A stretch of 64,000 bases of DNA from Halobaculum sp. MBLA0147 (lineage in GTDB: Archaea; Halobacteriota; Halobacteria; Halobacteriales; Haloferacaceae), in assembly GCF_041361345.1 (NCBI RefSeq), contig NZ_JBGKAD010000001.1:1240001-1304000 (forward strand), read 5' to 3'. The position numbers and the translations under genes were made by a program. The stretch's first letter is position 1, and each line of letters starts with the position of its first letter. This document shows positions 9,686 through 28,796 of the stretch, in pieces. Below the pieces are notes generated by a model that made no database searches, was not told the DNA's origin, and worked only from the letters and a program-made list of their open reading frames with translations.

Positions 9686-9785
9686 GCGCCGACGGTCGGC
9701 AGAGTGGTCGCCGTCGTCGGTTACCGAAGCGGTCGGCGCCGACAGTCGGCGACGTGGTCGCCGTCGTCAGTTGGCGAAGTGGTCG
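9686..9785. repeat. Imperfect 50-bp tandem duplication overlapping the rpl11 3' end
   Basis: A 50-bp unit beginning GCGCCGACGGTCGGC at 9686 is repeated at 9736 with several mismatches. The second copy includes the last codons and stop of rpl11 (9767-9785), so the first copy is a decayed duplicate of that gene end lying in the spacer before the PHP gene. Confidence 0.75.
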
Positions 9786-10243
9786 TCGTACTCGCCGTCG
9801 TCGATCCGCTGCTTGAACTCGCGGGCGTCGTTACCCTCGACGGTGACACCGAGCGAGGCGCAGGTACCGACGATCTCCTTGGCGGCGTTCTTCAGGTCGT
9901 ACGCCAGCAGGTCCGTCTGTTTCTGCTCGGCGACCGTCTTCACCTGCTCGACCGTCATGTCGGCGACGAAGTCCTCCTGGGGCTCGCCCGAGCCGGTCTC
10001 GAAGCCGGCCTCGTCTTTGATCAGTTCCGCCGTCGGCGGCACACCGACCTCGATCTCGAAGGAGCCGTCCTCCTCGTAGTCGACGGTGACCGGCACTTCC
10101 ATCCCGTCGAAGGCGGCGGTCTCGTCGTTGATCTCCTGCACGACAGCCTGCACGTCGACCGGCGTCGGACCGAGCTCCGGCCCGAGCGGCGGACCGGGGT
10201 CCACCTGGCCGCCGGGGACGAGTACTTCGATAGATCCAGCCAT
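9767..10243 (-). CDS. rpl11: Large-subunit ribosomal protein L11 (uL11)
   Basis: 158 residues. GSIEVLVPGGQVDPGPPLGPELGP is the classic L11 N-terminal signature (archaeal form), and KNAAKEIVGTCASLGVTVEG is the C-terminal RNA-binding domain contacting the GTPase-centre 23S rRNA. A GCTTAAACT element about 33 bases before the ATG is its promoter. It stands alone here, without rpl1/rpl10/rpl12 beside it, as is usual for haloarchaeal L11. Confidence 0.97.
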   Translation of the reverse strand: MAGSIEVLVPGGQVDPGPPLGPELGPTPVDVQAVVQEINDETAAFDGMEVPVTVDYEEDGSFEIEVGVPPTAELIKDEAGFETGSGEPQEDFVADMTVEQVKTVAEQKQTDLLAYDLKNAAKEIVGTCASLGVTVEGNDAREFKQRIDDGEYDDHFAN

Positions 10244-10410
10244 ACCCGAGGATTCCACCGGCGCGGAGTTTAAGCGTTGTCTTCTCGCCCCAGCCGAGTG
10301 TGAGAGTGTAGCGTGGCGCGGTCGTGACCGTGCGGTGGCTGGCTCGCCGGGTCGTCTCTGGGCGGCGGCGAGCCCGCGACGTTTATCCCGTCGTCGGGCC
10401 GACTCCGGGT

Positions 10411-11391
10411 GTGACGGAACTCGTGACGTTCGGCGAGACGATGTTGCGACTCTCGCCGCCGGAGGGGGACCGGCTCGCGACCACGCGCACGCTCGAGGCC
10501 CGCGCCGGCGGGGCGGAGAGCAACGTCGCCGTCGCCGGGGCACGACTCGGCGCCGACACGGCGTGGCTCTCGAAGCTCCCGGACTCTCCACTGGGGGAGC
10601 GGATCGTCCACGAACTGCGCGGGCACGGCGTCGACACCCGCGTCGCCTGGGGCGACCCCGAGACGACGCGACTGGGGACGTACTACCTCGAACCCGGCGG
10701 CGAGCCGCGCGGGACGGACGTGATCTACGACCGCGCAGACGCGGCGATCACCACCGTCGCGACCGAAGAGTTGGCGACCGAGACGGTCGCGGACGCGACG
10801 TACTGTTACACGAGCGGGATCACACCCGCGCTGTCGGAGGAAGCCGCCGAGACGACGCGGGAGCTGCTCGCACACGCGCAGGCGAACGACACCACGACGG
10901 TGTTCGACCCGAACTACCGGGCGAAGCTGTGGGACACCGAGACCGCGCGGGCGGCCTACGAGGAGTTGTTCCCGGACGTGGACGTGTTGGTCGTCGCGCA
11001 GCGCGACGCCGCCGCGGTGTTGGGACGCGACGGGGCCGGGTCGACGGCGGGGACGCCGGCCGAGCGGGTCGCGCGGGGGCTGATCGCGGACTTCGACTTC
11101 GAGACGGTGGTCGTGACGCGCGGCGACGAGGGGGCGCTGGCGGTCCACGAGGGGGACGTGTACGACCAACCCGTCTACGAGGCGGAGACGTTGGACCCAA
11201 TCGGCACCGGCGACGCCTTCGTCGGCGGGTTCCTCGCACGGCGACTCGACGGCGGGGGCGTCGACGAGGCGCTGTCGTGGGGGGCCGCGACGGCGGCACT
11301 GAAACGCACCGTCGCGGGTGACCTCGCGGTCGTCTCCCCCGACGAAGTCGCCGCCGTCGTCGACGAGGCGAGCGGTGGGATCGACCGCTGA
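10411..11391 (+). CDS. kdgK: PfkB-family sugar kinase, probably 2-keto-3-deoxygluconate kinase
   Basis: 326 residues. PfkB signature 1 region ([15 protein letters not shown] near 32-46) and signature 2 ([18 protein letters not shown], with the catalytic Asp) are present. The best-matching haloarchaeal family phosphorylates 2-keto-3-deoxygluconate/galactonate in the semi-phosphorylative Entner-Doudoroff pathway. GTG 10411 was chosen because GTTTATCC lies 25-30 bases upstream. Substrate assignment is by family resemblance; ribokinase or fructokinase activity cannot be excluded. Confidence 0.82.
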
Positions 11392-22277: not shown

Positions 22278-22401
22278 GCACCACCGTACGGGTGTGAGTG
22301 ACAAAAACTCCGCGGGGGTGGCGACCGCCGAGCCGACGGTCGACGCGAGGTGGGTCCAGGCGCGACACAGACTTTTGACGAACCAGTCCCTTGCGGCCGG
22401 T

Positions 22402-25116
22402 ATGCCGACCGACCCGTCCGTCCTCTGTCTCCCCCCGAGCGAGGAGGACGGCGACGAACTCGCCGCCGCTCTCGCGGACGCCGAGGCCGTCACTACCACG
22501 GTCGCGTCCCCCACAGATCCGCCAGAGGATCCCGCCTCGTCGTTCGACTGTGTGGTGGTCACACCCGCGTCGCTCGACGAACCGGCCGTCGAGACGGTCG
22601 TGGGGAAGCCGCTGCCGGTGGTGCTCACGGACGGCGGGACAGACGTGCTCCCGGAGACGGTCGCTCGCGTGGCGACCGGAGAGCGTCGCCCGACCGCGGA
22701 CAACCCGATCGAGAGCGGCGGGCTGCTCGACCCGGCAGAGAGCGACGACGACACGACGCCCGGCGCGGCGACGGCGGAGGCGAGCACGGCGGGGCCGGCG
22801 GCCGCGGGGACCGACGCCTCGGGGTTCGCGGCCGCCGCCGAGGAGACGTTCGACCCCGAGGTGCTCAAGCGGGCCGTCGACGCCGCACAGACGCCGCTGA
22901 CGCTCAGCGATCCGAGCCGTCCGGACAACCCGATGGTGTACGTCAACGAGGCGTTCGAGCGGGTGACCGGCTACGACGCCGAGGCGTGTCTCGGGCGCAA
23001 CTGCCGGTTCCTGCAGGGGCCGGAGACGGACGAGCGGGCCGTCGAGCAGATCAGGGCGGCCATCGACGCCCGCGAGCCGGTCACGGTGGAGTTGACGAAC
23101 TACACCGCCGACGGGGAGCCGTTCCGCAACCGGCTCACCGTCACGCCGGTGTACGACGACGGGGAGTTGGTCCACTTCCTCGGCTCACAGGAGGACGTGA
23201 CCGACGAGTGGCGGGCGCGCCGCGACGCCGAGTTGGTGCGGAGTCTCGTCAACGAGGCCAACGACCTCGTGTTGGTGACGGACCCGGAGACCGGCGAGAT
23301 CGTCGACGCGAACCGGACGGCCTGCGAGGAGTTGGGGTACGACTACGCGACGCTGACGGACATGACGCCGGCCGGCGTCGACCCGCGGTTCGACGACGCC
23401 GACGACTACCGCGCGTACCTCGACGACGGCGACGGCGCCATCGAGCAGTCGACCACCGAGGGCCGCTTCCAGCGCGCGGACGGCTCGACGTTCCCCGTCG
23501 AGGTGACCGGCCGCGTCACGGAGTTCGACGGCCGGCAGTACCGGCTCGCCATCGCACGCGACATCACGGAGCGGAAGCGGCGCGAGCGCCGCCGACGCGA
23601 GCTGTCGGCCGCCATCGAGGAGCTGTACGCGGTCGACAGCCAGACCGCGGTGGCGGACACGGCCGTCGAGATCACCGCGCGGGCGCTGGACCTGGAACTG
23701 TCGGCGGTCCGGCTCCGCGACGAGACCGGCCACCGGCTGGAGCCGGTGGCGATCAGCCCCGCGGCGGTGGACGCCGCCGCCGACGACGCCGAACTCGCGG
23801 CCGCGTTCCCCGCCTACGACATCGACGGCTCCGCACCCCACGCGGAGGCGTACGCGACGGGCGAGCCGGTTCGGGTCACGGACACGGCGGTGCTCACCGA
23901 CGGCCACGAGCGGCCGGCGGTGGACGCGTTGGTGTGTCTCCCGTTGGGCGCCCACGGCGTGTTCAGCGTCGGCGCGCACGCCGACGAGACGCTCACGGAC
24001 GGGGACGTGGAGCTGTTGGAACTGTTCGCGGGCAACGTCCGCGCCGCACTCGACAGGCTGGCCGTCGAGCGGCGTGTTCGCGAGCAGCGCGACGACCTGC
24101 AGGTGCTCAACCAGATGGTGCGCCACGACATCCGCAACGACCTGCAGGCGACGCTGGCGTTCGCCGAGACCATCGCCGACGTGGGCGAGGGTGACGTGGC
24201 CGAGTTCGCCGACCGGATCGTCGAGTCGACGCGCAACGCGATGGAGTTGACCAAGACCGCCCGCGACCTCGGCGAGACGATGCTCCAACCGGAGCGCGAA
24301 CGGAAGCCGATCCCGTTGCGCGGGACGGTTCAGTCGCAACTCGACGAGGTGCGCTCGACCGCACAGGGGGCGGTGATCACCACCGACGGGACGATCCCGC
24401 GGGTGGACGTGCTCGCCGACGACATGTTCGACTCGGCCGTGCGGAACCTCCTGACGAACGCGGTCGAACACAACGACGGCGCCGTCCCGGAGGTGACCGT
24501 GTCCGCGACGGTCGAGGAGGGGGACGACGACGGTCCCGACCGCTGGGCGACACTGCGGGTCGCCGACGACGGGCCGGGTGTGCCGCCAGACCGGCGCGAG
24601 GAGATCTTCGGGAAGGGGGAGAAGGGCCTCGACAGCGAGGGCACCGGGATCGGACTGTACCTCGTCCAGACGCTCGCCGAGAACGCCGGCGGCGAGGTGT
24701 GGGTCGAGGACGGCGACCCGGAGGGAGCGGTGTTCGTCCTCCGACTCCCGGTCGCGGAGCGAGACGACTGGGCCGGCGGCGGAGACGGCGGCGTAGGCGA
24801 CGAGTCGGTCGTCGGCGTCGGCGGCGTCGAGGGTGTCGAGAGTACACAGGGCGCCGAGAGTGTAGCGAGTGCCGAGAGTGCCGGGAGCGCAGAGAGTGGC
24901 GACGACACCGACGCGTTCGCTGCGGCGATCGGCCCGGAGACGACCGATCCCGTCGAGAACGGCTACGACGGCAGTGGTGGCGAGGACGGACACGGCGGCG
25001 AGGCTGCAGAGGACGACGCCGCCACGGAAGGTGAGAGCGACGGCGGAGACGACGGTGGTGACGCCGCGGAAGGTAATGGCGACGGCGAAGACGACGGCGG
25101 CGACGCCCGGGCCTGA
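22402..25116 (+). CDS. Blue-light (LOV) sensor histidine kinase with PAS and GAF domains
   Basis: 904 residues from ATG 22402 (TTTTGACG lies about 25 bases upstream). After a Glu/Ala-rich N-terminal region there is a LOV domain with the flavin-adduct motif GRNCRFLQGPETD, Cys201 being the photoactive cysteine. A second PAS domain (about 275-395), a GAF domain (about 400-560), a phosphoacceptor helix NQMVRHDIRND with His575 and an HATPase_c domain (N box NLLTNAVEHN; G boxes ADDGPGVP and GTGIGLYL) follow. About 120 C-terminal residues are acidic Gly/Asp/Glu low complexity. No transmembrane segment is visible, so it is a cytosolic light or redox sensor; its response regulator is not adjacent. Confidence 0.9.
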   Translation: MPTDPSVLCLPPSEEDGDELAAALADAEAVTTTVASPTDPPEDPASSFDCVVVTPASLDEPAVETVVGKPLPVVLTDGGTDVLPETVARVATGERRPTADNPIESGGLLDPAESDDDTTPGAATAEASTAGPAAAGTDASGFAAAAEETFDPEVLKRAVDAAQTPLTLSDPSRPDNPMVYVNEAFERVTGYDAEACLGRNCRFLQGPETDERAVEQIRAAIDAREPVTVELTNYTADGEPFRNRLTVTPVYDDGELVHFLGSQEDVTDEWRARRDAELVRSLVNEANDLVLVTDPETGEIVDANRTACEELGYDYATLTDMTPAGVDPRFDDADDYRAYLDDGDGAIEQSTTEGRFQRADGSTFPVEVTGRVTEFDGRQYRLAIARDITERKRRERRRRELSAAIEELYAVDSQTAVADTAVEITARALDLELSAVRLRDETGHRLEPVAISPAAVDAAADDAELAAAFPAYDIDGSAPHAEAYATGEPVRVTDTAVLTDGHERPAVDALVCLPLGAHGVFSVGAHADETLTDGDVELLELFAGNVRAALDRLAVERRVREQRDDLQVLNQMVRHDIRNDLQATLAFAETIADVGEGDVAEFADRIVESTRNAMELTKTARDLGETMLQPERERKPIPLRGTVQSQLDEVRSTAQGAVITTDGTIPRVDVLADDMFDSAVRNLLTNAVEHNDGAVPEVTVSATVEEGDDDGPDRWATLRVADDGPGVPPDRREEIFGKGEKGLDSEGTGIGLYLVQTLAENAGGEVWVEDGDPEGAVFVLRLPVAERDDWAGGGDGGVGDESVVGVGGVEGVESTQGAESVASAESAGSAESGDDTDAFAAAIGPETTDPVENGYDGSGGEDGHGGEAAEDDAATEGESDGGDDGGDAAEGNGDGEDDGGDARA

Positions 25117-25374
25117 GCGGTCGGTCGCGGTGGGGGACGGAGTCACGTCGTCGCCCGGTCGGGTGCGTCTCGACGCTACCCACTCCCGTCAGTCGTCGTC
25201 CGTCCCCGGCTCGCCGGTCGCGGCGTCGGTGCCGCGTTCGGCCATCGTCTCAGCGAGACGATCGATACGTAGAGTGTATCTTCGCGAAATCTGTCCGAGA
25301 CGGCGTGTCGTCGTACGAAGAACATAGATAGAAACTGCGTCAAATTCTTAACCTTATAATATGACTATAGACAC

Positions 25375-26394
25375 GTGACAGACGATAAAACGAGAGACGA
25401 TATAGCAATACGTGTCGATCGTCTTCACAAAACGTTCGGTGGGGAGGACGGCACGACTGCCGTCGACGGGGTCAGTTTCGAGGTCCCCTCGGGATCTGTC
25501 GTCGGAATCCTCGGTCCGAACGGTGCCGGGAAGACGACGACGATCAAGTCGATTCTCGGCTTAGTCCAGCCCGACGCAGGTGAGATAGAGGTCTCGAACA
25601 TCGACGTACGAGAACAGCCGCGGGCTGCCTACGCTCGGATGGGTGCGATACTCGAGGGCGCACGGAACATCTACTGGCGGCTCACCGTCCGCGAGAATCT
25701 CGAGTTCTTCGCAGGGTTAGGAGGAGATCACCCGGAGCGTCTACGAGAACGTCACGACAGGTTACTCGAGCGGTTCGAACTCGCCGACTGGGCGGACACG
25801 CCTGTCCGGGAACTCTCACGGGGAATGAAGCAGAAGGTGTCTCTCGCCACGACACTCGCGAGAGATGTCGACGTCGTGTTCATGGACGAACCGACTCTCG
25901 GTCTCGACGTGGAAGCGTCGGTCGAACTCCGGTCCGAACTCCGACGGCTGTCGGCTGACGAGGAGGTGACAGTCGTCCTGACCAGTCACGACATGGACGT
26001 GATCGAACAGGTCTGTGACAGTGTGATACTACTCACCGACGGGTCCGTACTCACACACGAAGAGGTCGATCGGTTGATCGACACGTTCCGGACCAAGGAG
26101 TACCGTGTGACGCTCGCGGCACCCGTCTCCGACGACGTTCGCCGGCGTGTCGAACGTGTTACAGACGCGGACTGGGAGCGCAGCGGTGATCGCGTGTCGG
26201 TAGCGTTCCGGGCACCCAGAGGCGAGACGGTCTACGACGTGGTCGAGCTGCTCTCCGACGCCGGCATCGAACTACGTGACATCGAGTCGATGGAGCCGAA
26301 CCTCGAAGATGTCTTCCTCCACCTAACCGAGGAGACGACGGAGTCGTCGGAGTTCGACGGCCTCGATCAGGTGGCAGAACGGGGGCGATCGTGA
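25375..26394 (+). CDS. ABC transporter ATP-binding protein (ABC-2 type exporter)
   Basis: 339 residues from GTG 25375; CCTTATAATATG 25-30 bases upstream is a strong leaderless promoter. Walker A GPNGAGKTTT near 47, Q-loop region, signature LSRGMKQKVSLA near 145, Walker B VVFMDEPTLGLD near 165 and H-loop SHDMDV. The about 100-residue C-terminal extension (EYRVTLAAPVSDDVRRRVERV to LTEETTESSEF) is typical of DrrA/CcmA-like exporter ATPases. It overlaps the permease by 4 bases and leads a cluster of two small precursors and a methyltransferase, so it most likely exports or gives immunity to their product. GC is visibly lower than in flanking genes. Confidence 0.9.
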   Translation: MTDDKTRDDIAIRVDRLHKTFGGEDGTTAVDGVSFEVPSGSVVGILGPNGAGKTTTIKSILGLVQPDAGEIEVSNIDVREQPRAAYARMGAILEGARNIYWRLTVRENLEFFAGLGGDHPERLRERHDRLLERFELADWADTPVRELSRGMKQKVSLATTLARDVDVVFMDEPTLGLDVEASVELRSELRRLSADEEVTVVLTSHDMDVIEQVCDSVILLTDGSVLTHEEVDRLIDTFRTKEYRVTLAAPVSDDVRRRVERVTDADWERSGDRVSVAFRAPRGETVYDVVELLSDAGIELRDIESMEPNLEDVFLHLTEETTESSEFDGLDQVAERGRS

Positions 26395-27194
26395 CTATGA
26401 CCCGATCAGAGTCTGGACACTCGGGTTCGCTGTGGCTGTTGTTCCGTACGATCTCGCAGAAGGCGATCGTCACGATGGTTCGGTACCCAGTCGACACGGC
26501 TTCGCAGTTCGTCGGGTTGTTCGTTCTGTTCCTGTTGGTCTTCTTCGGCGGTACCGCAGTCGGTGGTCAGCAGTTCTCGGACAGTCTCGAAGGGGTCGTG
26601 ATCGGATTCTTCCTCTTCACCGTCGCCTCGGGGGCGTACGCCGGTGTGGCGAACAGTGTCTCCACCGAGTCCGAGTGGGGGACACTGGAACGCCTCTACA
26701 TCTCTCCGTACCGGTTCGGTACGGTCGTCGCCGTGGATGCACTGGTAAACGTCGTGATCAGTGTCCTCTGGGCCGTCGTGCTGTTGGTCCTGATGATGGG
26801 AGTCACCGGTCGGTGGCTCAGCGTCGATCCACTCACTGTTGTGCCCTTGTTGGTCGCAACCGTCACACCGGTCTTGGGACTCGGGTTCGCGTTCGGCGGT
26901 GCGGCGTTGGTGTACAAACGAATCGAGAGCGTGTTCCAGTTGGTGCAGTTCGCGTTCGTCGCACTCATCGCTGCACCGGTCGGTGAAGTCTGGATACTCC
27001 GACTGTTACCCGCCTCACACGGAGCCTACCTCACCCGCCGAGCGATCGAGTCGAACCGCAGTCTACTCGAGTTTCCATCCGGGGAGATCGCGCTCGTCTT
27101 CACGACTGCGATCGTCTACTTCACCGTGGGTTACTACGTGTTCGTGCGTGCGACGACGGTCGCCCGTAGTCGCGGTGTGATGGGACACTACTGA
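26391..27194 (+). CDS. ABC-2 family transporter permease
   Basis: 267 residues (GTG 26391 overlaps the ATPase stop; ATG 26397 is the alternative start). About six hydrophobic segments: FVGLFVLFLLVFFGG near 40, a second near 65, then VVISVLWAVVLLVLMMGV, VVPLLVATVTPVLGLGFAFGG, FQLVQFAFVALIAAPVG and ALVFTTAIVYFTVGYYVFV at the C-terminus. Layout fits the DrrB/ABC-2 fold that pairs with the preceding ATPase. It is followed by a 195-base gap with a new promoter and then the first precursor gene. Confidence 0.85.
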   Translation: MTMTRSESGHSGSLWLLFRTISQKAIVTMVRYPVDTASQFVGLFVLFLLVFFGGTAVGGQQFSDSLEGVVIGFFLFTVASGAYAGVANSVSTESEWGTLERLYISPYRFGTVVAVDALVNVVISVLWAVVLLVLMMGVTGRWLSVDPLTVVPLLVATVTPVLGLGFAFGGAALVYKRIESVFQLVQFAFVALIAAPVGEVWILRLLPASHGAYLTRRAIESNRSLLEFPSGEIALVFTTAIVYFTVGYYVFVRATTVARSRGVMGHY

Positions 27195-27299
27195 CGGCAC
27201 ACGCCGCTCCCGTCGGCCGGAAACCCGTCTCTCATCCGTTGCTCGGCGGACTCCCCGTCGTCAGACACGCCCACCCGGTGAATTCGTCCTCCCGAGTAC

Positions 27300-27370
27300 T
27301 ATAATGTAAATTATGTAAAAGTCTAATACGTTCTACAGTAATTGTACCGTGTGCACGTCCAAAGCACACG
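27300..27370 (+). promoter_or_regulatory. Promoter and 5'-UTR hairpin of precursor gene 1
   Basis: Two AT-rich TATA candidates, TATAATGT (27300-27307) and TTATGTAAAA (27311-27320), are followed by a perfect 7-bp hairpin: CGTGTGC (27348-27354) pairs with GCACACG (27364-27370) around 9 nt. The coding start at 27390 then lies about 48 bases after the predicted transcription start, an unusually long leader for a haloarchaeon. The hairpin may be an operator or a translation control element. Confidence 0.55.
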
Positions 27371-27389
27371 TGATGTGATTCACAGGAGC

Positions 27390-27572
27390 ATGGAGAGCGA
27401 ACAGTTCGTGCAGGCGTTGCAGCACGGGGACCCCGACCTCGACAACCTCGATCTGTCCGAGGAGGAGAAAGACGCGATCCGCTCCGACGACGACAGCGAC
27501 ATTCAGGAGTTGATCGGGACGATCAAGTCCGACGTCCTCGTCGCGGTCGTAGTCACGATCGCCCGAGCATAG
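27390..27572 (+). CDS. Putative borosin-type RiPP precursor peptide 1
   Basis: 60 residues. Leader residues 1-45 are acidic and helical (FVQALQHGDPDLDNLDLSEEE, then DIQELIGTIK), resembling Nif11-like and split-borosin leader domains. The tail DVLVAVVVTIARA (48-60) is almost entirely beta-branched or small hydrophobic residues, as borosin core peptides are. ATG 27390 is preceded closely by AGGAG; a GTG at 27372 is an alternative. Its leader aligns with precursor 2: FVQALQHGDPDLDNLDLSEE against FLQQFNSDPEAALAEMDVSEE. Precursor role is inferred from the neighbouring methyltransferase. Confidence 0.72.
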   Translation: MESEQFVQALQHGDPDLDNLDLSEEEKDAIRSDDDSDIQELIGTIKSDVLVAVVVTIARA

Positions 27573-27670
27573 AGGGAGCAACCCCCTTGTCCATCTTGTA
27601 TATGTACATTTATGTCTCTCCGACAAATATGCGTTAACTACAAGTAGATATAACACACACTGAGGAATAC

Positions 27671-27690
27671 ATGTCAGAAGCTTCTGACAT
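27671..27690. promoter_or_regulatory. 20-bp perfect palindrome at the start codon of precursor gene 2
   Basis: ATGTCAGAAG (27671-27680) is followed directly by its exact reverse complement (27681-27690), so the palindrome begins on the A of the start codon. GAGG at 27662-27665 is a Shine-Dalgarno with normal spacing. The palindrome could be a repressor operator or an mRNA fold that hides the start codon. AT-rich promoter elements (GTTAACTAC, AGATATAAC) lie at about 27632-27655. Confidence 0.7.
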
Positions 27691-27907
27691 TCAGACGGTG
27701 TTGGACCGATCTATGAACGACGAGAAGTTCCTCCAACAGTTCAACTCGGATCCAGAAGCTGCTCTCGCCGAGATGGACGTGAGCGAAGAGGCCGAGGAGA
27801 GCCTGAAGGCGGAGGAAGACGGGAGTATCTACGACTACCTCGACTCGCTCAATATGGCAACCGTGTACACGATCACGATCACCTACGTCTCGAGAAAGCG
27901 GGACTGA
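27671..27907 (+). CDS. Putative borosin-type RiPP precursor peptide 2
   Basis: 78 residues. Leader residues 1-60 are acidic and helical (DIQTVLDRSMNDEKFLQQFNSDPEAALAEMDVSEEAEESLKAEEDGSIYDYLDSL). The tail MATVYTITITYVSRKRD (62-78) alternates Thr with Ile, Val and Tyr and ends in a basic stretch, so it could be trimmed. It has its own promoter and a GAGG ribosome site, suggesting expression apart from precursor 1. Twenty bases separate its stop from the methyltransferase gene. Confidence 0.74.
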   Translation: MSEASDIQTVLDRSMNDEKFLQQFNSDPEAALAEMDVSEEAEESLKAEEDGSIYDYLDSLNMATVYTITITYVSRKRD

Positions 27908-27927
27908 CTGAACAGATTCTCGTTATC

Positions 27928-28776
27928 ATGGACGGCTTCGACAACCCGGTAGACATCTACATCGTCGGGACTGGCATGGTGGGGTACCGGCAGATGACCG
28001 AAGAGGCGGAGGCTGCGCTCCGAAACTCGGAGACGGCGTACTTGATCCACTACCAGAAGGTGGTCGCCGACTACGTCGAGGACACCGTCGCGTCCGAACT
28101 GGGCGACGTGTCTGGAGAACTGATACAGTTGACCGACGAGTACCAGGAAGACGAGGACCGAGCGAACACGTACGAGCGCATGGCGGCACGGGTTATGGAT
28201 GGTGCCGAAGCGGCGGACAACCCAGTCTGTCTCGCACTGTACGGACATCCGAACGTCTTCGTCTCGCCGACCGAGTGGATCGCCGATGAGGCCGAGGAAA
28301 GAAACATGAACGTCGACATCCGTCCCGGCGTCTCGTCGATGGATGCGTTGTACAGTGATCTGATGTTGGACCCGTCACGGAACGGGATTCAGATGTTCGA
28401 GGCGACGGACCTCCTGATCCGCGAGTTCGATCTCAACCCGCACGTACCGGCGTTCATCTGGCAGATCGGCACTCTTGAGACGGTGCTGTACACGACCGCG
28501 GACAGTAGTCCGGAACGGTTCGAGCGGTTCAGAGAGTACCTCGAACGCTTCTACCCGTCCGACCACACCGTGTACATCTGTCAGACAGCAGTGTACCCGA
28601 CGACACAGTCGAAACAGATCCCCGTCGAGATCGGTGACTTCGAGGAGAAACACGACGAGATCAACGGGGTGCAGACGCTGTACGTCCCCCCGGTAGAGCG
28701 GAAGGAGGTCGTGAACGAGGAGTTGGAAGAACAAGTCGTCTCCTCGGACCACTTGGAGACGATCACCGAGAACTGA
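27928..28776 (+). CDS. Borosin-like peptide backbone alpha-N-methyltransferase (tetrapyrrole methylase fold)
   Basis: 282 residues. The N-terminal VDIYIVGTGMVGYRQMTEEAEAAL is the tetrapyrrole-methylase SAM fold. Unlike diphthine synthase or CobA types it has LALYGHPNVFVSPT (YGHP at 105-108) and DIRPGVSSMDALYSDLMLDPS, the motifs of OphMA/SonM borosin methyltransferases, followed by EATDLLIRE. Near residue 78, DEYQEDEDRANTY places Tyr72, Arg78 and Tyr82 where OphMA has Tyr66, Arg72 and Tyr76; the OphMA Tyr63 position is Thr69 here. Core peptides are in separate genes, so this is a split system acting in trans. It adds methyl groups to backbone amides by analogy. GC is lower than in flanking genes. 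Confidence 0.82.
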   Translation: MDGFDNPVDIYIVGTGMVGYRQMTEEAEAALRNSETAYLIHYQKVVADYVEDTVASELGDVSGELIQLTDEYQEDEDRANTYERMAARVMDGAEAADNPVCLALYGHPNVFVSPTEWIADEAEERNMNVDIRPGVSSMDALYSDLMLDPSRNGIQMFEATDLLIREFDLNPHVPAFIWQIGTLETVLYTTADSSPERFERFREYLERFYPSDHTVYICQTAVYPTTQSKQIPVEIGDFEEKHDEINGVQTLYVPPVERKEVVNEELEEQVVSSDHLETITEN

Positions 28777-28796
28777 ACGACTGGACGGTCACTCGA

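Follow-up and report, generated by a model that had tools for sequence, protein, structure and literature searches.

In a 64,000-nucleotide stretch of the genome of the haloarchaeon Halobaculum sp. MBLA0147 (contig NZ_JBGKAD010000001.1, positions 1,240,001 to 1,304,000; hereafter the window) a cluster of five genes at 25375–28776 very probably encodes a split borosin system, that is, a system producing a ribosomally synthesized and post-translationally modified peptide (RiPP), in which a pair of ATP-binding cassette (ABC) proteins of the ABC-2 type exports the methylated product. The results that carry this reading are at the level of sequence: the borosin family membership of the methyltransferase, its catalytic residues, the family to which the precursor leaders belong, and a pairing of precursor and enzyme which is kept across loci. 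From these we infer methylation, the positions and direction of the methyl transfers, cleavage, export and any biological role. All five open reading frames (ORFs) are intact and on the + strand, and the five-gene arrangement given in an earlier note on this DNA was confirmed at its original coordinates. The features are as follows (locus numbers beginning with L are our own):

27928..28776, +: borosin peptide backbone alpha-N-methyltransferase, 282 aa (PDB matches, profile, tree, conserved residues)
27351..27572, +: precursor 1, borosin-binding-type leader and hydrophobic core, 73 aa (leave-one-out leader profile E 2.2e-9; genome search E 2.5e-23)
27528..27569, +: core predicted for precursor 1, SDVLVAVVVTIARA (by alignment to SonA core 62–71 via precursor 2)
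27671..27907, +: precursor 2, borosin-binding-type leader and beta-branched core, 78 aa (leave-one-out leader profile E 1.1e-15)
27854..27904, +: core predicted for precursor 2, MATVYTITITYVSRKRD (from the profile in register with SonA 3–62, the SonA core starting at 62)
25375..26394, +: ABC transporter ATP-binding protein (DrrA-like), likely peptide exporter ATPase (PF00005 E 3e-30; TIGR01188 drrA 3.5e-65)
26391..27194, +: ABC-2-type permease, exporter partner (PF12698 E 7e-7; homologs at L022 and L023)
25117..28790, no strand: low-GC islet enclosing the whole cluster (composition; congener loci L074 and L075)

The methyltransferase

On sequence evidence the 282-amino acid product of 27928–28776 is a member of the borosin backbone (alpha-N-) methyltransferases. 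When its sequence alone was searched against the PDB, 25 distinct sequences came back, all of them borosin enzymes or their variants (1e-25 to 4e-20), the best being dbOphM (1e-25), SonM (3e-23), MroMA1 (2e-21) and OphMA (2e-21). The earlier note had proposed a profile search against borosins and the other tetrapyrrole methylase families; run with a family profile built from ten relatives, it gave 2e-48 for dbOphM and 3e-41 for SonM, against 9e-6 for the best non-borosin methylase and 0.0055 for diphthine synthase, which puts borosin methyltransferases over 30 orders of magnitude ahead of all other tetrapyrrole methylases.

The enzyme shares Pfam family PF00590 with seven other proteins of the same genome, and matches the NCBIfam model of the YabN methylase domain weakly (61 bits, where the cut-off is 525). 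Both facts would suit an ordinary tetrapyrrole methylase, of the cobalamin pathway or a diphthine synthase, lying beside small genes unrelated to it. This is scarcely credible, however, given that the borosin enzymes match far better, that housekeeping versions are already encoded elsewhere in the genome and that conserved leader peptides adjoin every homolog. In a maximum-likelihood tree of borosins together with the genome's seven further methylases (DphB, CobA and Cbi-type enzymes among them), a branch with 100/100 support splits all borosins from the seven; a grouping with diphthine synthase or CobA, looked for among these same-genome enzymes, did not appear. Among the borosins themselves support is weak for several branches, monophyly of the haloarchaeal group is not firm, and the window enzyme is placed outside the branch containing SonM.

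The SonM substitutions Y58F, R67K and Y71F cause large losses of catalytic efficiency, and Y93 has a role in the binding of S-adenosylmethionine (SAM) (Miller et al., PMC8429565). The equivalents of Y58, R67, Y71 and Y93 in the window enzyme are Y72, R78, Y82 and Y105, which are invariant in 10 sequences, that of Rhodobium included. R78, Y82 and Y105 align to SonM directly; since SonM has extra residues near the first position, the equivalence of Y72 was taken from the alignment to dbOphM/OphMA, where its counterpart is the second Tyr of YYDNGKSR. The family likewise keeps S136 and Q179 without variation, and these match residues named as pivotal in KchMA (PMC11395268). The motifs YGHP (105–108), RPGVS (132–136) and DRANTY (77–82), picked out when the DNA was first read, are exactly where they were reported.

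Precursor leaders and cores

The leaders of precursors 1 and 2 match each other (phmmer, 1e-6) and also match small proteins encoded next to the methyltransferase elsewhere (phmmer, down to 3e-11). With a profile of ten leaders the top PDB family is SonA (1e-6; residues 3–62, with no shift of register) and the next are LigA-type dioxygenase domains (gallate dioxygenase); the assignment of the precursor leader as a SonA-type borosin-binding domain is supported by this family-level comparison. Because the ten-leader profile included the window, it was rebuilt without the window rows. Among 1104 ORFs this leave-one-out profile put precursor 2 at the top (1.1e-15), then the Bradyrhizobium precursor, then precursor 1 in third place (2.2e-9), and two Sinorhizobium leaders after it. 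Over the nine borosin genomes described below the leader profile gave no other match below E 0.02, and it gave none in two congeners without the methyltransferase. When precursor 2 was compared with the curated NHLP/Nif11-type leader families it scored 35.6 bits with NF038399 (cut-off 40, E 7e-9) and 26.9 bits with TIGR04509 (cut-off 34), from which its leader appears to be related to the NHLP/Nif11 type (Os1348/NHLP clan) while not a member by cut-off. The precursor 1 ORF opens at a TTG at 27342, with an in-frame GTG at 27351; the latter is probably the start, because the homologous leader begins there.

Each precursor tail has 7–8 Ile, Val or Thr residues in its best 12. In a background of the C-terminal 25 residues of 33 ORFs the maximum was 5 per 12, and 12-mers with at least 7 amounted to 0.1%. 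The two small genes had been described in the earlier note as having related acidic leaders and beta-branched hydrophobic tails; the mutual leader match and the excess over background bear this out, and the C-terminal tails quoted there are exact. Both cores are proline-free, and methylation is predicted around residues 63–71 of precursor 2.

LigA is also the Pfam family closest to the leaders, weakly and for 9/10 members, and structural homologs of the SonA binding domain cap dioxygenase active sites (PMC8429565). One could therefore imagine a borosin-like complex of enzyme and leader that works on some substrate besides the cores of the small genes, with the leaders serving as regulatory caps like the LigA-type domains on dioxygenases; the very short or acidic tails of some relatives (L024, L025 and L026) would fit this. 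We consider such an arrangement very unlikely, in view of the hydrophobic tail found at the SonA-core position in all the closest relatives and of the SonM–SonA system, where a single chain carries both the leader and the core that receives the methyl groups (PMC8429565).

Proposed mechanism, export and genomic setting

In the split borosin system that we propose, the acidic helical leader, resembling the borosin-binding domain of SonA, would dock on the tetrapyrrole-methylase-fold enzyme encoded at 27928–28776, and the short V/I/T-rich core would enter an active site lined by Y72, R78 and Y82. Methyl groups from SAM would be moved stepwise to the backbone amide nitrogens of the core, probably in the N- to C-terminal direction, after which the leader would be cut off by a protease encoded outside the cluster and the product exported by the ABC-2 pair. 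A split borosin with two substrates was also the proposal of the earlier note, and the borosin placement of the enzyme, the SonA-type leaders and the conserved SonM catalytic residues argue in its favour.

A number of results weigh against this reading. There is no leader peptidase within 25375–28776; few mature borosins are known because the specific peptidase is lacking (PMC11395268), and a peptidase in the cluster is not a required feature. Precursor 2 searched alone against the PDB does not match SonA, which is found only with the family profile. Its AlphaFold model is helical and of low confidence (a predicted local distance difference test score, pLDDT, of 56), and a PDB fold search with this model returned mostly SonA chains, each non-significant (E 3–10) and not evidence; a five-helix fold of the leader is weakly supported by the model. 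The AlphaFold model of the methyltransferase, made with the window and Rhodobium sequences, is too poor for use (pLDDT 43). Lastly, the permease family is present in 247/391 Halobacteria genomes. Prolyl-oligopeptidase-like genes do occur elsewhere in the window genome; we do not assign them to the cluster, because neither core contains proline.

For PF12698 the permease scores just under the Pfam threshold (29.1 bits, with 31.6 required; E 7e-7), but its homologs make its class clear. Homologs of both ABC subunits lie beside the borosin genes at L022 and L023, and at L036 an annotated ABC ATPase stands in the same place with a hypothetical protein at the permease position. The family being so common, its presence alone says little, and the permease was rejected as a borosin marker. 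Five of the ten permeases closest to it across the class have a LanC/LanM gene no more than 15 kb away, to which a rough model of uniform placement gives a chance of about 2e-8, and two of the relatives adjoin small precursor-like ORFs that contain Cys (L046 3188–3373 and L048 906–1097), with LanC/LanM 1–13 kb off. These neighbours make RiPP export the likeliest role of the ABC pair. The window genome also has a LanC-like gene elsewhere (G000:C1:1999807-2000985).

Even if the borosin system is real, the ABC pair might be an unrelated drug- or lipid-type exporter which lies upstream by accident. The relatives that are best named are DrrA-like exporters, the permease belongs to a widespread family, 156 bp lie between the permease and precursor 1, and other borosin loci have exporters of the major facilitator superfamily (MFS) instead. 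On the other hand the ABC genes are on the same strand and in the same low-GC islet as the borosin genes, and the homologs at L022, L023 and L036 and the proximity of permease relatives to lanthipeptide synthetase genes speak against accident; we regard this alternative as unlikely. The dedicated exporter of the earlier note is supported only in part: homologs at three other borosin loci and the lanthipeptide neighbours speak for it, while the 247/391 genomes with the family speak against it. The pair may be dedicated to the peptides of precursors 1 and 2.

The ATPase and permease ORFs share a 4-nt overlap, and the methyltransferase gene starts 20 nt after the end of precursor 2, enzyme and precursors being separate adjacent genes. 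The islet that encloses the cluster is about 3.5 kb long with a GC content of 54–61%, compared with about 72% for the flanking genes. In both sampled congeners (L074 and L075) the gene for a multidrug and toxic compound extrusion (MATE) protein at the right flank is kept and the cluster is absent. One congener also keeps the gene beyond the left-side kinase; there the kinase is missing and the gap is filled by other genes, on which grounds a clean empty site was rejected and the place is regarded as variable. No convincing integration scars, in the form of flanking direct repeats or a nearby tRNA, were found at the islet. The kinase ORF (window 22294–25116), which immediately precedes the cluster, is large and PAS/histidine-kinase-like and carries a LOV-type motif, GRNCRFLQG; its GC content is normal, and it is missing from the matching place in the one congener.

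Relatives in archaea and bacteria, and comparison with known systems

The methyltransferase is found in 9/391 sampled Halobacteria genomes, the window genome counted, from six genera. An order-level search gave 7/392 genomes, all within these nine, and a phylum-level search of 393 genomes gave three matches, one of them (G672) outside the class. At all nine haloarchaeal loci a leader-bearing precursor gene lies within about 0.3 kb of the methyltransferase gene. The patchy occurrence, together with low GC content and carriage on plasmids, points to horizontal spread of these gene sets in haloarchaea; on plasmid unnamed4 of Haloarcula sp. CBA1115 the borosin genes carry the annotations hypothetical protein and SAM-dependent methyltransferase. 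No relatives were found in a search of viral contigs, and a scan of named genome contigs yielded the single relative from Rhodobium orientis. In the latter the ORF preceding the methyltransferase (L009 7470–7979, 169 aa) has an internal run, VTVVTTTTTVNTVTVTTTTTTT, which is an extreme beta-branched core candidate. The match in G672 (L035 9407–10687) is a single fused ORF composed of an N-terminal borosin-type leader, a proline-rich stretch and a borosin methyltransferase domain; its leader gave E 0.009 in the leave-one-out search, and the tree places its enzyme with SonM and a Streptomyces enzyme.

The haloarchaeal loci differ in their accessory genes. In the Haloarcula-type loci (L022, L023 and L036) the order is precursor, methyltransferase, prolyl oligopeptidase and a further gene, which in L022 is a regulator by Pfam, and the ABC genes are divergent:

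L022 10847–12895; L023 6939–8987; L036 10846–12894: prolyl oligopeptidase, directly downstream of the methyltransferase

The best PDB match of this oligopeptidase is prolyl endopeptidase (3e-83), and the same list contains OphP (about 1e-57), the omphalotin cyclase, which is of the prolyl oligopeptidase family (PMC12235650). Among the haloarchaeal borosin loci it was seen only in those of Haloarcula type, whose precursor tail includes IVLPSSEA and has one proline. That oligopeptidase presence tracks core proline was rejected as a rule, since the Bradyrhizobium precursor beside an oligopeptidase has a proline-free tail. In L019 and L021 the next gene downstream encodes an MFS_3 exporter, and L024 and L025 have short precursors ending in DFDPRSWLINN. 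In L026 the precursor (9765–10493, +), divergent from the methyltransferase, comprises a leader and six near-identical DDNIGYTGDS-type repeats and looks like a multi-core precursor; a second methyltransferase, of class I type (L026 8257–9045), adjoins it. On one shared type of leader, then, the cores are highly diverse. A conserved membrane protein lies by the borosin genes at L024 (8277–9065, weak DUF4231 match), L025 (8183–8968) and L026 (7024–8220), and is possibly an immunity protein.

More tentatively, haloarchaea may hold an undescribed, horizontally spreading branch of split borosins in which the Haloarcula-type oligopeptidase releases or cyclises the N-methylated core after proline (GIQIAGIVLP / SSEA), a doubtful proposal as a whole. 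If it is true, archaea would have macrocyclic backbone-methylated peptides like the fungal omphalotin. With the oligopeptidase co-located, the idea of archaeal cyclisation along the fungal route is open to direct test.

Borosins have been described from fungi and bacteria and predicted in metazoans, and are one of only two RiPP routes to backbone methylation reported in the literature covered; this modification makes peptides protease-resistant and membrane-permeant. A survey of 11,644 archaeal genomes treats YcaO, radical-SAM, lanthipeptide and lasso clusters and leaves borosins unmentioned (PMC12144867). No archaeal borosin was found in the searchable literature, outside which fell the two main borosin surveys, which might list one; within that coverage the earlier note agrees in naming no characterised archaeal example. 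Archaeal borosins would carry this chemistry into the third domain, with enzymes expected to be active at high salt.

Among the known systems closest to the window cluster is the type IV split borosin SonM/SonA of Shewanella oneidensis (PMC8429565), in which methyltransferase and precursor genes are also separate. The window precursors, of 73–78 aa, are like SonA (71 aa) in that a binding-domain leader precedes a short, hydrophobic core at the C-terminus, and the window enzyme keeps the catalytic Y, R, Y and Y of SonM; the window cluster differs in being archaeal, in having two precursors per operon and in the ABC exporter upstream. The fungal OphMA/dbOphMA methyltransferase domain (PMC12235650) is the best solved-structure match of the window enzyme, and the Haloarcula-type relatives recall the OphMA/OphP system in carrying a prolyl oligopeptidase of the family containing OphP. 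Unlike the fused OphMA/dbOphMA, the window system has enzyme and core in separate genes, no oligopeptidase and proline-free cores. The archaeal fusion of G672 resembles the fused type 0 architecture (PMC11395268). In the split borosins of bacterial plasmids (Bradyrhizobium sp. 155, Sinorhizobium meliloti and Streptomyces sp. BHT-5-2) a small leader gene likewise directly precedes the methyltransferase; the haloarchaeal leader profile detects the Bradyrhizobium and Sinorhizobium leaders, and the Bradyrhizobium locus also has a prolyl oligopeptidase, but the enzymes are 27–30% identical to that of the window and lie on another branch of the tree. The class II lanthipeptide clusters of haloarchaea (PMC12144867) come from the same archaeal class and have related ABC-2 exporter genes near LanC/LanM, but differ from the window cluster in their use of LanM thioether rings and Cys-containing cores.

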